Source of the DNA: Pseudomonadota bacterium
GTDB lineage: Bacteria > Pseudomonadota > Gammaproteobacteria > Burkholderiales > Burkholderiaceae_C
Direction of reading: 5' to 3'
DNA: 64,000 nt
NCBI GenBank assembly: GCA_021816585.1
Contig: JAKAXL010000002.1
Coordinates: 124,001-188,000, forward strand
In this document: piece by piece, positions 2,984-7,899 of the stretch
How positions within the stretch are numbered: position 1 is the first letter of the stretch
Layout: each line of letters starts with the position of its first letter
Position numbers and translations under genes: made by a program
The notes under the pieces: model-generated
Told to the model about the DNA's origin: nothing
The model's input: the letters and a program-made list of their open reading frames with translations, nothing else
Databases searched by the model: none

Positions 2984-3103
2984 GTGCGGTCTCCCCGGGG
3001 TTCGGTGTGCCCAGGAAGCATAGTGCCACCTCCGGAGGCGCTGGAAGGGCCGAGGGCGCGCAGCCAGCTGGAACATCTCGCCGCAGGCCGGCGACGTTGC
3101 CCC

Positions 3104-3132
3104 TTGCATTGCTGGTTTATGCAAAGCATAAT
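3104..3132 (+). promoter_or_regulatory. sigma70-type promoter with overlapping dyad operator
   Basis: TTGCAT (3104-3109), a 17-base spacer, then CATAAT (3127-3132), in a locally AT-rich patch 27 bases before the start codon at 3159. The spacer and -10 contain the perfect dyad TTATGC-aaa-GCATAA (3117-3131), well placed to be a repressor site. The -35 is weak and the -10 matches 5 of 6 consensus bases. Confidence 0.5.
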
Positions 3133-3158
3133 TCAGCAAACAGCAAGGGAGAAGGCTC

Positions 3159-3476
3159 ATGATCAGCACCAGCAGTCAGCAGTGGACCCCAGGTCAGCAG
3201 GTCCGCGTCGGCTTTCTCACGCTCACGGTGCGCGCCGCCGTGGCCACGCCCGGCGATTTCGCGCCGGATGCCTACATCCTGACGAACGGAGCCGGCACGC
3301 AGGCCTACAAATTTGTCCCACATCGTGGCCTGGAGAAGATCGGGCCGAGCGAGGCCGCGGCGCTGATCGCCGACCAGGACGCCCGCACGCGCCGAGAGGC
3401 CCTGCAGGTGATGGCGAAGGCCAAGGCTGACGCGGAGGCGTCGCGCACCCTCGACGCCATCTTCGCCCGGGCCTGA
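3159..3476 (+). CDS. hypothetical protein, first gene of a compact operon
   Basis: 105 residues, unknown function. The N-terminal half is beta-rich (GQQVRVGFLTLTVRAAVA, then YILTNGAGTQAYKFVPHRG) and would suit a small barrel. The C-terminal 45 residues are a charged helix rich in Ala and Lys. AAGGGAGAAGG precedes the ATG, so initiation looks strong. It is the first gene after the promoter/dyad at 3104-3132 and is followed after two bases by the next gene. Confidence 0.65.
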   Translation: MISTSSQQWTPGQQVRVGFLTLTVRAAVATPGDFAPDAYILTNGAGTQAYKFVPHRGLEKIGPSEAAALIADQDARTRREALQVMAKAKADAEASRTLDAIFARA

Positions 3477-3478
3477 CC

Positions 3479-3715
3479 ATGAGCGACGATCAGCCGAAGA
3501 AGTCAGGGCGCGGCGGCCCGCGTCCCAACTCTGGTGGCGCGCGTCCAGGATCTGGGCGGCCGCCGGCAGAGGTCAAGAACGAGGTTCACCAGGTGCGGCT
3601 GCCGCCGTGGGCCGTCGCGGCGCTGCGTCTTCTGGGCGGCGGCAGCCTGTCGCGCGGCATCGTGGCTGCGCTGGAGCGGCTGAGCAGGCACGACGACGGA
3701 GCCCCGAAGCCATGA
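3479..3715 (+). CDS. small basic protein with GGxRPxSGG repeats
   Basis: 78 residues. The N-terminus carries two copies of a Gly/Pro/Arg motif (GGPRPNSGG and GARPGSGRP), typical of flexible nucleic-acid-binding tails in phage proteins, including some small terminase subunits. Residues about 33-70 (EVHQVRLPPWAVAALRLLGG...) read as one strand followed by two helices, which is compatible with a ribbon-helix-helix fold; that is inference. The stop overlaps the next start (ATGA at 3712-3715), so the two are translationally coupled. The dyad upstream of the operon would be a natural target if this protein is an autoregulator. Confidence 0.6.
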   Translation: MSDDQPKKSGRGGPRPNSGGARPGSGRPPAEVKNEVHQVRLPPWAVAALRLLGGGSLSRGIVAALERLSRHDDGAPKP

Positions 3716-4026
3716 AGCTGTATCACTCGACGTCTGCAAGTAGGGCTCAGGCGATCCTTGCGGATGGGTTCCGCGACGAGGCCTTCATGGGTGTCGCACG
3801 CGGAGTGTTTTTCGCCGATCGCCCGTTGCTTCCGTTCGATGGCGTCGCGGCGTCCGCAGAGGTCACGCTGGAAGTCATGCCCTCGGCAGCCCTCCAGGAC
3901 GAATGGGAACTGATCGAGGAGGGGCGCCCCGAGGACGCCTATCGCGAATGGCTGGTGCCAGCCGATGTGGCCAATACCTGGCCGTGCCGATTGCTGACGG
4001 AGGACGAACGAGCCGAGATTGACTGA
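3712..4026 (+). CDS. putative ADP-ribosyltransferase-fold (PARP/KptA-like) small protein
   Basis: 104 residues. The start MKLYHSTSAS with H5, the helix AQAILADGF, the strand GVFFAD (31-36) and the strand-turn YREWLVPADV with E79 follow the order of the three conserved elements of H-[YF]-E ADP-ribosyltransferases: 'HGT/HST', 'GxYFAxx' and an acidic residue before 'hhVP'. The family includes PARPs, KptA tRNA 2'-phosphotransferase and several toxins. The assignment is from motif pattern only, and at 104 residues the protein would be a minimal version. An ATG upstream at 3607 in the same frame is ignored because the real start overlaps the previous stop (ATGA). Coupling to a small basic upstream protein could reflect a toxin/antitoxin or effector/immunity pair, but that is untested. 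Confidence 0.6.
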   Translation: MKLYHSTSASRAQAILADGFRDEAFMGVARGVFFADRPLLPFDGVAASAEVTLEVMPSAALQDEWELIEEGRPEDAYREWLVPADVANTWPCRLLTEDERAEID

Positions 4027-4127
4027 TCCACCGCCGCCGGCCGGTTGCCGGCGATGAAGGCGGGCAGGCGCGGTGGTCCAACACTACGCCTGCCCTGACC
4101 ACAACGTGCACACTGGAGGTGCAAGAA

Positions 4128-4580
4128 ATGGCTACTGCCAATGGTAGTTCTGTGGGCGCGACGCCCACGCAGCGGGATCTGCAGTCGATCCCATTCCGAG
4201 GCCACACGGTCTACGTGTGGCGCCAGCCCGAGCCGACGAAGCATGCCTTCGCCTGGCGCGTGGTGCGCGACGTCGATCAGCGAGAGCTTGCCGAGGCCCA
4301 TGCCGACAGTTACGCCGACGCCTGGGGCGCCGCGCTGTCGAGCGTGTCCGCGGGAGGGACACAACCGGAGGCGACGGTGCGCGATCGCCTCGACGCCGTC
4401 GACGCCATCAGCGAAGCGCGGCACATCCTCCGATTCTTGCGGGCTGTCGGGCTCCCCGATGATGTACCGCAGAGCTACGAAAGCGAGGGCTACCGATTCA
4501 TTCTGTCGGACATCTACGGTCGACTGGAGCTCGCCTTGGATGGCCTCGGAGAAAAAGCGACGGAGGTGCATCATGGCTAA
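4128..4580 (+). CDS. hypothetical accessory protein
   Basis: 150 residues, not recognised. The first half includes FRGHTVYVWRQPEP and AFAWRVVRDVDQREL, suggesting a small beta-alpha fold; the second half is helical (DRLDAVDAISEARHILRFLRAVG and a closing helix). GGAGG at 4115-4119 lies 8 bases before the ATG, which decides against the in-frame GTG at 4119. It overlaps the next gene by 8 bases and follows the ART-like gene after a 101-base gap without an obvious terminator, so it is probably in the same operon. Confidence 0.6.
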   Translation: MATANGSSVGATPTQRDLQSIPFRGHTVYVWRQPEPTKHAFAWRVVRDVDQRELAEAHADSYADAWGAALSSVSAGGTQPEATVRDRLDAVDAISEARHILRFLRAVGLPDDVPQSYESEGYRFILSDIYGRLELALDGLGEKATEVHHG

Positions 4581-4932
4581 CAGCATCGGAAATCTCATTC
4601 GCGAGATTGGCGACCTGGCGCTCGATCAGATGAACCGTGAGCAGCTCGAGGCCGTTGCCATGTTCGATGTCCATTCGGAAGAGTTTGCGCCCAACCTCGC
4701 GGACTTGGCCGAGGGGCTGGGCTGCCTGATTGCGCAGGACGCCCAGGATGCCGACGAAGGCCGCATCAGTTCCGGTGTTCTCCAAGGCACTCGGGCGATA
4801 GCGGCTTTCGCCGCGATCAGAGAATCTGTCGACATCATCGCGGCTGTGGGTTACATCACCAACTACGCCACGTCCAAACTGCTGCAGCCCAAGACCTACG
4901 GAGGCCCTGTCGAGGGAAAGAGCCCTGGCTGA
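4573..4932 (+). CDS. hypothetical accessory protein
   Basis: 119 residues, not recognised. It begins MANSIGNLIREIGDLALDQM and is predicted almost entirely helical, with no signal peptide, membrane segment or cysteine cluster beyond one Cys. CGGAGG at 4561-4566 precedes the ATG at a good distance, and the start lies within the last codons of the previous gene, indicating coupling. I rejected the longer frame starting at 4141 because it would lie entirely over the previous gene. Confidence 0.6.
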   Translation: MANSIGNLIREIGDLALDQMNREQLEAVAMFDVHSEEFAPNLADLAEGLGCLIAQDAQDADEGRISSGVLQGTRAIAAFAAIRESVDIIAAVGYITNYATSKLLQPKTYGGPVEGKSPG

Positions 4933-4948
4933 TCCAACCAAGGAAGAC

Positions 4949-5122
4949 GTGGGCGCCGCAGAGCGCGCCCTCCTGCACGCCCTGACCCTGGCCCGCGCGG
5001 TACGCCGCATCGTCGAGAACGCAATGCCAAGTCATGATGACACCGGCGTCGATCGCCTCAGCGCCGTCGAGTTGCTGGTCATGATCGAGACAGAAGCCGA
5101 CGAGGCGTTGGGACACTTCTAG
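4949..5122 (+). CDS. small hypothetical protein, last gene before terminator
   Basis: 57 residues if translated from the GTG at 4949. It reads VGAAERALLHALTLARAVRRI and then ELLVMIETEADEALGHF, an amphipathic helical protein with no recognised family. The frame stays open upstream to CTG 4925, where GAGGGA gives a better ribosome-binding position, so the true start is unsure. Support is its position directly after a coupled gene and just before a good intrinsic terminator. Confidence 0.4.
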   Translation: MGAAERALLHALTLARAVRRIVENAMPSHDDTGVDRLSAVELLVMIETEADEALGHF

Positions 5123-5145
5123 GGCGTCAGCCCGGCAACGATCGA

Positions 5146-5167
5146 CCCGGCCGCGCGCCGGGTTTTT
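5146..5167 (+). terminator. intrinsic terminator of the 3159-5122 operon
   Basis: Stem CCCGGC (5146-5151) / GCCGGG (5157-5162), loop of five bases, followed by TTTTT (5163-5167), 24 bases after the last stop codon. Confidence 0.75.
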
Positions 5168-5218
5168 CATGCATGTTGCAGGCGTTCGATCGGCGCCCAA
5201 GCACTGAGGAGGTGGAAC

Positions 5219-5605
5219 ATGGCGAACCAGGACATTGCTACGGCCGTTCAAACCCTGACCGCGGCGATTGCCGAGCAGATCACAAGCGCAATGCTTAGCC
5301 AGCCACAGGGCGGCGCGGCTGAGCGCCGAAGCGACGGCTGCCAGGGTGCCGGCGGCGCCGCGGACTGCGAAGTCCTCGCGATCGCGGTCCGCGCCGTGCA
5401 GCTGTACGCTGAGACGCACCCCAGGCCGCCACACGTCACGCAGAAGGAAGCCGCGGCGATGCTGCGCATGTCGGAGCCGACCATCCGCAAGCTCATCCAG
5501 TCCGGAGCGCTCAAGCTCAACCGCGCCGGCCGCATTCCGATCGCTCAGGTGGACGAGCTGGCGGCCCTACCAGGAACGCCCCATGTCGGACCCAAGGCCA
5601 CTTGA
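5219..5605 (+). CDS. excisionase/MerR-like helix-turn-helix protein
   Basis: 128 residues. The C-terminal half (about 72-118) is an HTH_17/excisionase-type winged helix: VTQKEAAAMLRMSEPTIRKL as helix-turn-helix, then IQSGALKLNRAGRIPIAQVDELA as the wing and closing helix. The N-terminal half is Ala/Gln-rich with no known domain. Such proteins act as recombination directionality factors or as regulators in mobile elements. GAGGAGG sits just before the ATG. It overlaps the next small gene by 23 bases. Its presence close to a tRNA-adjacent element end supports mobile origin, though the partner integrase is not in the window. Confidence 0.7.
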   Translation: MANQDIATAVQTLTAAIAEQITSAMLSQPQGGAAERRSDGCQGAGGAADCEVLAIAVRAVQLYAETHPRPPHVTQKEAAAMLRMSEPTIRKLIQSGALKLNRAGRIPIAQVDELAALPGTPHVGPKAT

Positions 5606-5875: not shown

Positions 5876-6526
5876 TTGATTTCGTTACTTCTCGTCGTGC
5901 TCTTGGCGATCCTGGTGTACCTGGATGCCAGGAAGCTTGGTGTGGGCAACGGACTCGTTTCCGGCATGGGCCGCGCCAGCCCTGTAACCTGGTCGCTGCT
6001 GACCCTCTTTGTCGGGATCGTCGGGCTGCCGCTCTACCTGTTCTATCGCGGACGCTACAAGGCCGCCATCCTTGCGCAGCGCGGGGTGGTCCCCGACAGC
6101 GGCTACATCGGCGCCATCTGGATCACGCTTGCCGGCGTACTCGCGATCGCCTTCTACACGTTCAATGCGTCGAGCACGCCTGAACCTGCGCCTTCCCATG
6201 TGCCGCCCATTGCGATTGCTGCTCCCCAACTCTACGCGGCCTACCACGCCAACGAGGTCGCCGCGGACGATCGGTTCAAGCACCGGCTGCTGATGGTCAA
6301 TGGCGTGGTGTCGAGCATCAACAAGAGCTTTGACGGCTCGGTGTGGGTCGGGCTGCGTGACGGCGACCCGATCGGCGTGGTGCAAGCAACCGTCCTCACC
6401 TCGCAGGATCAGCGGGCCGCAGCCCTCAGCAAGGGCAACGAAGTCACCCTCCTATGCGTCGGCGACGGCATGATGCTCGGCTCGCCCATGCTCAGCCACT
6501 GCCGGTTCGATCCGGGCGGCTACTAA
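5876..6526 (+). CDS. membrane protein with tRNA_anti-like OB-fold domain
   Basis: 216 residues. Three hydrophobic segments occupy about 1-17, 38-57 and 77-96. A Pro-rich linker leads to a soluble domain (about 118-212) starting LYAAYHANEVAADDRFKHR, with VNGVVSSI, VWVGLRDG and LSKGNEVTLLCVGDG, closing with a Cys pair (C194, C209). This is the pattern of the tRNA_anti-like OB-fold family, whose members sit in bacterial envelope proteins of unknown role. The start is TTG, with GGGGGGAA five bases upstream; translation from it gives a proper first membrane helix. A terminator follows the stop. Confidence 0.7.
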   Translation: MISLLLVVLLAILVYLDARKLGVGNGLVSGMGRASPVTWSLLTLFVGIVGLPLYLFYRGRYKAAILAQRGVVPDSGYIGAIWITLAGVLAIAFYTFNASSTPEPAPSHVPPIAIAAPQLYAAYHANEVAADDRFKHRLLMVNGVVSSINKSFDGSVWVGLRDGDPIGVVQATVLTSQDQRAAALSKGNEVTLLCVGDGMMLGSPMLSHCRFDPGGY

Positions 6527-6563: not shown

Positions 6564-6653
6564 CGTGGCTCGCGTGCGCGCTTGGCCGAGGGTTCCGCTT
6601 TGAACCGTCCCGGTCGACTGTTCCTCGCATTGAGTTCCCGAGGAACAGCGACC

Positions 6654-7205
6654 ATGAGCATCAGCACCACACCCGCCGGCAACCCTGTCGGTGCCGCGAA
6701 CGAGGCGCGCCTGCGCGCGAGCGGCGTCAGCCTCACCACCGACTACGGCAAGTGGGCCCTGAGCCTCGCCCGCACATCAAAGGTTCACCTGTGCATGGCG
6801 CGGAAGGATTTCGACTTCGTGTGCATCCAGCCGGGTGATGGTGCCGGCCACCGCTGCGCGCTCCATGGTGGCGCCAGCCGGGGCCCGAGGACACCGGAGG
6901 GCAAGGCACGGTCCGCAGCCAACCTGCGCCAAAACCGCATGCGCGGCCCGATCCACTGGGCTGCCGAAGGGGGTGCAGCGCCAGCGCCAGGCGAGCAGCC
7001 AGCAGCACCCGTTGCGCCGGGCGCCGGCGTGGGCGAGTACCTCACCCACGAGGAGGTCGCCACGCTCACCGGCAAGCAGCGCGCGGCCGCGCAGTGCAGG
7101 GTGCTGCAGGCGCTGGGCATTCCCTTCCTGCGGCGTGACGGCGTGCCAATTGTCTCCCGCGTGCTGGTGCAGCAGGCCATGACCGGCGCCGGCGGCGCGC
7201 GGTAG
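6654..7205 (+). CDS. HGG/Cys3His domain fused to DUF4224
   Basis: 183 residues. Residues 35-95 carry C47, C57, C68 and H71 with the spacing C-x9-C-x10-C-x2-H and HGGASRGPRTPEGKARSA, matching the protein at 1007-1375. An Ala/Pro linker follows. Residues about 127-175 (YLTHEEVATLTGKQRAAAQCRV, then LGIPFLRRDGVPIVSRVLV) match DUF4224, a small domain usually encoded immediately upstream of phage tyrosine integrases. Here no integrase follows; the next 600 bases are gene-poor and end at a tRNA. The ATG at 6654 has GAGGAA upstream, and the frame's earlier codons add nothing recognisable. DNA binding near an attachment site is a plausible but unproven role. Confidence 0.7.
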   Translation: MSISTTPAGNPVGAANEARLRASGVSLTTDYGKWALSLARTSKVHLCMARKDFDFVCIQPGDGAGHRCALHGGASRGPRTPEGKARSAANLRQNRMRGPIHWAAEGGAAPAPGEQPAAPVAPGAGVGEYLTHEEVATLTGKQRAAAQCRVLQALGIPFLRRDGVPIVSRVLVQQAMTGAGGAR

Positions 7206-7823: not shown

Positions 7824-7899
7824 TGGTGGGCCCTGCGGGGCTCGAACCCGCAACCAACGGATTATGAGTCCGCTGCTCTGACCATTGAGCTAAGGGCCC
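7824..7899 (-). tRNA. tRNA-Ile(CAU) (lysidine-type tRNA-Ile2)
   Basis: On the minus strand the sequence begins GGGCCCTTAGCTCAATGG and ends AGGGCCC-A-CCA with the CCA encoded. The seven-pair acceptor stem, GGTTCGAGCCC T-arm and anticodon stem GCGGA/TCCGT enclose loop CTCATAA, giving anticodon CAT. The overall sequence resembles E. coli ileX rather than initiator or elongator Met tRNA, so C34 is expected to be converted to lysidine by TilS and to read AUA. Its 3' end faces the accessory region, the orientation in which elements integrate. Confidence 0.9.

Follow-up and report, generated by a model that had tools for sequence, protein, structure and literature searches.

A predicted minimal ADP-ribosyltransferase carried as probable cargo of a 17.4-kb prophage-like element

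The roles that the conserved residues of H-Y-E ADP-ribosyltransferases (ARTs) play with NAD+ are established for the superfamily. One of the closest described systems is AcrIF11, an anti-CRISPR ART of phages, prophages and plasmids that modifies Csy1, according to passages of PMC12421852. The same passages describe one AcrIF11 homologue as most similar to diphtheria-like ARTs, with H-F-H-D as its key residues. They also place ARTs in over 40% of jumbo phages versus 3% of siphoviruses and podoviruses, figures that make an ART on a small element unusual. Here we describe such a case. The ART-like protein P0001 is encoded in a 64,000-nt stretch of DNA from a Pseudomonadota bacterium (contig JAKAXL010000002.1), on a prophage-like element of 17.4 kb. 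The whole stretch is referred to as the window, and coordinates follow its numbering unless prefixed by a locus or contig; L-numbers denote fetched loci and G-numbers genomes, and P0005–P0008 are relatives of P0001.

3712–4026, plus strand: gene of P0001, a minimal ART-fold protein of 104 aa (translation, alignment A3, AlphaFold2 model, Foldseek and VIA-align rows)

The start of the gene at 3712 overlaps, as ATGA, the stop of a 78-aa open reading frame (ORF) at 3479–3715. The translation carries LYHST at residues 3–7, GVFFAD at 31–36 and YREWLVPA at 77–84. These features agree with a first-pass annotation made from the letters of the DNA, which had described a 104-residue protein with H5 in LYHST, GVFFAD at 31–36 and E79 before WLVP, coupled by ATGA to a small basic protein. 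The predicted active site consists of H5 (3724–3726), F33 (3808–3810) and E79 (3946–3948). At E ≤ 1, Pfam and NCBIfam return no family for P0001, and Pfam returns none for each of five family members. PADLOC has no match for any of the five, and the matches of the family to PHROG (best E 0.011) and to PDB profiles (E 0.32–1.8) are not significant.

The AlphaFold2 model of P0001, for which five family sequences served as input, has a mean predicted local distance difference test score (pLDDT) of 83.7 and a predicted template modelling score (pTM) of 0.77. All 50 of the Foldseek matches listed from the PDB (of 135) are ART structures by title, each single match being weak, and the same holds for all 50 listed when the structural matches are re-aligned with VIA-align. 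For the model of a second member, P0007, 42 of the 50 PDB matches listed are ARTs by title, and these too are singly weak. H5-x-T7 lies on strand 2–8 of the P0001 model, the place of the strand-1 histidine in H-x-T/S context, and E79 opens strand 79–82 as the late-strand glutamate. Residue 33, which follows G-[VI], is F in P0001, W in three members and L in P0005, and is therefore aromatic in four of the five.

The relatives were found by a search on DNA, in which genome contigs were scanned with a pattern for YRE[FWLC]xxPA. Among the 49 stretches returned, two encode complete, intact relatives in which the spacing to the histidine is as expected. One is P0005 in L060, from a metagenome-assembled genome titled Rokuibacteriota (BLASTP to P0001 48.1 bits, 38% of 97 columns), and the other is P0006 in L064, from one titled Chloroflexi (31.6 bits, 34% of 96 columns), each figure coming from a single comparison. 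P0006 is the weaker relative, and tblastn of P0001 on L064 falls short of E 0.01. The copy in a third stretch, L048 (Terriglobia), is broken, and the remaining 46 stretches were rejected as relatives after their frames were read. Patterns from a three-sequence alignment (A1) returned 43 stretches, including two viral contigs that encode P0007 (L093) and P0008 (L094). Identity of the relatives to P0001 is 34–42%. An 85-aa ORF at L093:971–1228, XRE-like by eye, stands 44 bp upstream of P0007.

Alignment A3 comprises the five intact members (P0001 and P0005–P0008) and has 18 invariant columns. These are L3, H5, T7, I15, L16, G19, F20, G31, V32, P38, E66, G71, Y77, R78, E79, L81, P83 and A84. H5, T7 and E79, the last within YRE[FW]L[VM]PA, are thus identical in all five. 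With these residues invariant and the predicted fold in agreement, the motif goes beyond chance. Family conservation, together with the structure models of P0001 and P0007, supports the prediction that P0001 is a member of the ART superfamily, of the H-[YF]-E type with a split β-sheet core. The ART-like identity put forward in the first-pass annotation is borne out by the two models and by the retention of H5 and E79 in every intact member. A split-sheet ART core is also found in the predicted structure, which that annotation had proposed comparing with ART folds.

The family is rare and patchy within the material searched. Among 200 genomes of the host's own family, profile A2 matches one, the host genome itself. 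The phylum of L048 (1 of 149) and that of L064 (1 of 241) each yield the seed genome and no other. In the phylum of L060 it matches 2 of 95, the seed genome and G1598. Copies that are broken or incomplete are present at L048 and L097 of the Terriglobia genome, at L105 of G1598 and at L098/L106 of the Rokuibacteriota genome. Searches with P0001 gave no relative in IMG/VR, phages, plasmids, genome contigs or PDB sequences. Searches of 50,697 phage records by tblastn with P0001 and P0007 likewise gave none, and neither P0005 nor P0007 has a match among plasmids. Literature searches yielded no paper recognised as describing the family, which is weak evidence, as the family has no name to search by. 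The family is unnamed in the libraries searched; the kind of enzyme is already known.

A number of weaker matches were set aside. P0001 matches four plasmid records at E 3–9, of which those in Bradyrhizobium NZ_CP088290 and Ruegeria were rejected because they lie in a different frame or in DNA without annotation, and the other two, also from Bradyrhizobium, fall under a site-specific integrase. The Halobaculum protein P0003, obtained with the first 23 residues of P0001 as query, was rejected because it has only the start LYHSTAAAKLPAILTDG in common. The Halobaculum plasmid carries a gene pair at L042:988–2034, in which a protein beginning INLRVPEEL is encoded upstream of one of 182 aa that has LYHSTAAAKLPAILTDG close to its start and may be ART-like. 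The same-family search with P0001 has matches in 48 of 399 genomes at E ≤ 0.1, and all apart from the host genome were rated as chance (at most 22.4 bits, mostly partial, inside long frames). G339 (E 1.9e-4, residues 20–70) was dropped on the same ground, as was G671 (E 4.6e-4, residues 55–93) from a class search with matches in 4 of 369 genomes at E ≤ 0.02, the host included. Matches in L007 and L024 cover residues 4–78. Early motif scans on DNA gave no relatives (three matches, none related, in one; 1 of 398, the host, in another; none in a third). One of the later scans gave nothing, and two gave only the viral contigs already known (L093 and L094).

The element is integrated at a tRNA-Met gene, is bounded by an exact 50-bp repeat and spans 17,406 bp, both copies included.

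7824–7873, no strand: right attachment repeat, 50 bp, inside a tRNA-Met gene (7824–7899, minus strand) (tRNA and exact repeat)
5876–6526, plus strand: superinfection-exclusion Sie-like protein, an accessory gene of the element (phrog_8545, E 1.5e-17)

The left attachment copy is at C53:114468–114517 (equivalent to L036:4468–4517). An integrase (phrog_1, E 4.2e-20) is encoded at the left of the element, followed inward by a replication initiation protein, a DnaB-like helicase, a tail completion protein and a tape-measure protein. The right part encodes an excisionase-like domain at 6582–7205, and the helix-turn-helix of 5219–5605 matches a small-terminase family (E 6e-6) alongside excisionases. 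Since no capsid, portal or large-terminase match was found among the 20 distinct element proteins scanned, a set smaller than that of all ORFs, the element is read as either the remnant of a prophage or satellite-like.

Homologues of the gene directly 5' of the ART gene provide sibling loci with which the site can be compared. Relatives of this gene are found in 8 of 27 same-genus genomes (10 loci), and in 9 of 70 genomes counting the host. The features concerned are the following.

3159–3476, plus strand: first gene of the operon, 105 aa, which precedes the 3479 homologue in most sibling loci (6 of 10 by tblastn)
3479–3715, plus strand: gene of a 78-aa basic protein with a GGARPGSGRPP motif, belonging to the element family in the genus and not ART-specific (relatives in same-genus genomes)
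3683–4026, plus strand: approximate insert relative to siblings, comprising the last codons of the 3479 gene and the ART gene, where siblings have a short end of the 3479 gene (alignment A5, raw junctions)
4027–4130, plus strand: conserved leader of the next gene, predicted to form two hairpins and another that surrounds the ribosome-binding site (consensus fold; alignment A6, 9 sequences)
4128–4580, plus strand: 150-aa gene, MATANGSSVG... (in 6 of 10 sibling loci, a homologue lies downstream of that of the 3479 gene)

L159 is closely related to the element throughout: the integrases are 90% identical, the replication proteins 83%, the helicases 85% and the tape measures 83%. It sits in the same-genus genome G308 and has no match to the Sie-like protein. 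L160, L161, L163, L164, L166 and L167 share several genes with the element, L162 shares three, and L165 and L168 share the 3479 gene only. The 3479 homologue of L159 ends in ...ALEKLKLRE and is followed directly by the leader that is found behind the ART gene in the window. The same empty site and leader occur in L162, L163, L164, L165 and L166, making six loci with L159. In L159, L163, L164 and L166 the leader is followed by a homologue of the 4128 gene; in L162 and L165 the gene that follows has a different start. In L160 and L161 a 68-aa gene (helix-turn-helix-like by eye) occupies the ART site and precedes the same leader. The ART is also missing from L167 and L168, which diverge downstream. 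The window departs from the siblings at ~3683, in the last codons of the 3479 gene, and synteny returns at ~4027.

The ART is absent at E ≤ 1e-4 from all 10 loci. Presence, absence and replacement, the pattern of a moron-like cargo gene, are thus seen at one site across the window and its siblings, of which L159 is syntenic throughout and others in part. Because six sibling loci have an empty site and two another small gene there, the ART gene is probably an inserted cargo (passenger) gene and not half of a toxin-antitoxin pair. Gain by insertion accounts for this more simply than the alternative of repeated loss from the siblings.

The best explanation, to which we assign a probability of about 0.62, is that P0001 is a minimal stand-alone ART of an unnamed family, carried as cargo in an operon of the 17.4-kb prophage-like element and acting as an effector. 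Catalysis, co-transcription and an intracellular role are the parts of this explanation that we infer. By analogy with the superfamily, NAD+ would lie in the cleft of the split β-sheet, held by H5-x-T7 on strand 1, with F33 packing or stacking against its nicotinamide. E79 on the late strand would polarise the ribose, and ADP-ribose would then be transferred to a target inside the producing cell. The gene is probably co-transcribed from a promoter ahead of 3159. The product would most likely be a mono-ADP-ribosyltransferase effector, with a macromolecule of the host or of a rival element as its most likely target. Its use by the element could be anti-defence (counter-defence of the kind exerted by AcrIF11), host modulation (as proposed for T4-type ARTs) or competitor exclusion, the last being a candidate because the Sie-like neighbour suggests it. 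An element effector is the likeliest use, since the ART is a lone cargo gene and no antitoxin or hydrolase partner is recognised among the six neighbours scanned (3159 to 5605), for which Pfam gives only helix-turn-helix and sigma-factor types, with no macrodomain.

Two observations are neutral towards this explanation or count against it. The guanine-plus-cytosine fraction of the ART gene, 0.629 overall and 0.724 at third positions, lies towards the bottom of the regional range, and that of the gene at 4573 is comparable (0.603, 0.725), so composition is no mark of foreign origin. The 3159 protein is found in 1 of 70 family genomes, the host, in a sample with one other genome of the genus. 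A broader proposal is that P0001 represents a sporadic, unnamed family of stand-alone ARTs of ~100 residues (L-[YF]-H-x-T...G-V...YRE[FW]L[VM]PA), spread by mobile elements across distant phyla as swappable anti-defence or host-takeover cargo, and here slotted between neighbour genes of related tail-encoding prophage-like elements. This proposal is tentative, and we consider it less likely than not.

The alternative that survives best is that P0001 is a defence or exclusion enzyme directed against other phages, which would need no 3479 protein and might, for example, modify RNA or DNA during infection. The superinfection-exclusion gene on the same element would suit such a role, and ARTs are known in the anti-phage systems DarTG (PMC9503650) and CmdTAC (PMC11618068). 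However, DarTG and CmdTAC have partner genes, of a kind not seen in the Pfam types of the six neighbours, and the family lacks a PADLOC match, making this alternative unlikely. A role in RNA-end repair like that of the KptA/Tpt1 enzymes, with transfer of a 2'-phosphate to NAD+, is decidedly improbable. P0001 aligns only to the C-terminal lobe of such enzymes (residues 91–177 of 8tfz), its 104 aa leave no room for the N-terminal RNA-binding lobe, and it has no Pfam match. PARP13 is an inactive ART-fold protein. Its presence among the structural matches, and the L at position 33 of one member, would fit a binding protein with an ART fold and no catalysis, but H5, T7 and E79 are all retained in the five intact members, and this possibility is just as improbable.

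The remaining alternative concerns the 3479–3715 gene, which starts 2 bases after the 3159–3476 ORF. Its product can be guessed to be a DNA-binding, ribbon-helix-helix factor. The count of neighbouring occurrences that the first-pass annotation had called for finds the two families together in the host alone, which is 1 of the 9 genomes holding the 3479 family among the 70 searched. No 3479 homologue is found in 11 loci around ART relatives (the broken copy L098/L106 is outside that set). Viral matches to the 3479 protein number 42 loci, 40 of them extending no further than residue 45, mainly over the GGARPGSGRP stretch, and these are not called homologues; the ART is in none of the 42 at E ≤ 0.1. 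The operon, which begins at 3159, opens with two genes that go with the element family and not with the ART; the 3479–3715 protein is not a dedicated antitoxin. That P0001 is a self-harming toxin in a module for defence or stabilisation, this protein being the antitoxin, had been suggested by the ATGA overlap and the small basic protein upstream, and the XRE-type-looking ORF ahead of P0007 in L093 could be read likewise, but the pairing is unsupported because the 3479 family recurs without the ART in genus elements (10 of 10 other loci), adjoins it in the host only and is missing around its relatives, and with no PADLOC match for the five members it is the least probable alternative of all.

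Upstream of the operon, the first-pass annotation had also pointed to a promoter with a perfect dyad.

3100–3158, plus strand: likely promoter region of the operon, with a 6-bp dyad (sibling comparison; consensus scan negative)

The dyad exists, as TTATGC-AAA-GCATAA at 3117–3131, but carries little weight. A 6-bp dyad (loop 0–6) is present in 264 of 2000 mononucleotide shuffles of the 103-bp stretch, which itself has a second one at 3078. TTATGC...GCATAA is upstream of the 3159-gene homologue in none of the six sibling loci printed, L161 having a different dyad. The dyad is therefore weak evidence and is not conserved. The consensus scan finds no sigma-70 site in the region. A promoter ahead of 3159 is nevertheless likely, because CTTGCA-like and TATAAT-like boxes, resembling −35 and −10 elements by eye, recur upstream in the siblings, and it would be a promoter of the elements. 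An outer imperfect dyad within 3100–3160 seems, by eye, to have changed on both sides between siblings, with TTGCTG...CAGCAA here and TGATGAAA...TTTCATCA in L159, and is perhaps an operator. The leader at 4027–4130 is conserved in 8 sibling loci (L159–L166), with both sides changed and pairing kept at 3 of 25 pairs. The TGCAC/GTGCA stem around its GGAG ribosome-binding site is invariant, and the leader is possibly a translation-control element. Four Rfam matches, all below gathering threshold, were read as chance.

Minimal ARTs are easily missed without a family model, and the conserved active site and signature motif make this family searchable. L159, a close relative lacking the ART at the same site, would allow effects on the host, on phages and on transfer of the element to be compared with the gene present and absent.

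Among known proteins, the DarT toxins (8baq, 7omu) differ from P0001 in size, 8baq with its 208 residues being about twice as long. P0001 has no Pfam or PADLOC match, and the six neighbours scanned lack a macrodomain of the DarG type that would complete a DarTG system. Caulobacter CC0527 (2o0p, 2o0q), which we take to be DUF952-type, is 12–13% identical to P0001, which has no Pfam match at E ≤ 1. Viral fold matches are found among small phage proteins of 121–162 aa in BFVD, at only 13–23% identity: A0A6J5P2M9 (E 2.9e-3), A0A1C9EH91 of Mycobacterium phage Tonenili (5.7e-3) and S5WKF0 of phage PaBG (0.02). The annotation of S5WKF0 reads putative RNA 2'-phosphotransferase, and that of other BFVD rows ART or DarT. 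AcrIF11, as portrayed in the passages of PMC12421852 cited above, resembles P0001 in being an ART encoded by mobile elements. The likeness is one of description, and the late acidic residue is D in the AcrIF11 homologue and E in P0001. If P0001 is truly an anti-defence enzyme, it would join AcrIF11 among the few known catalytic counter-defence proteins.
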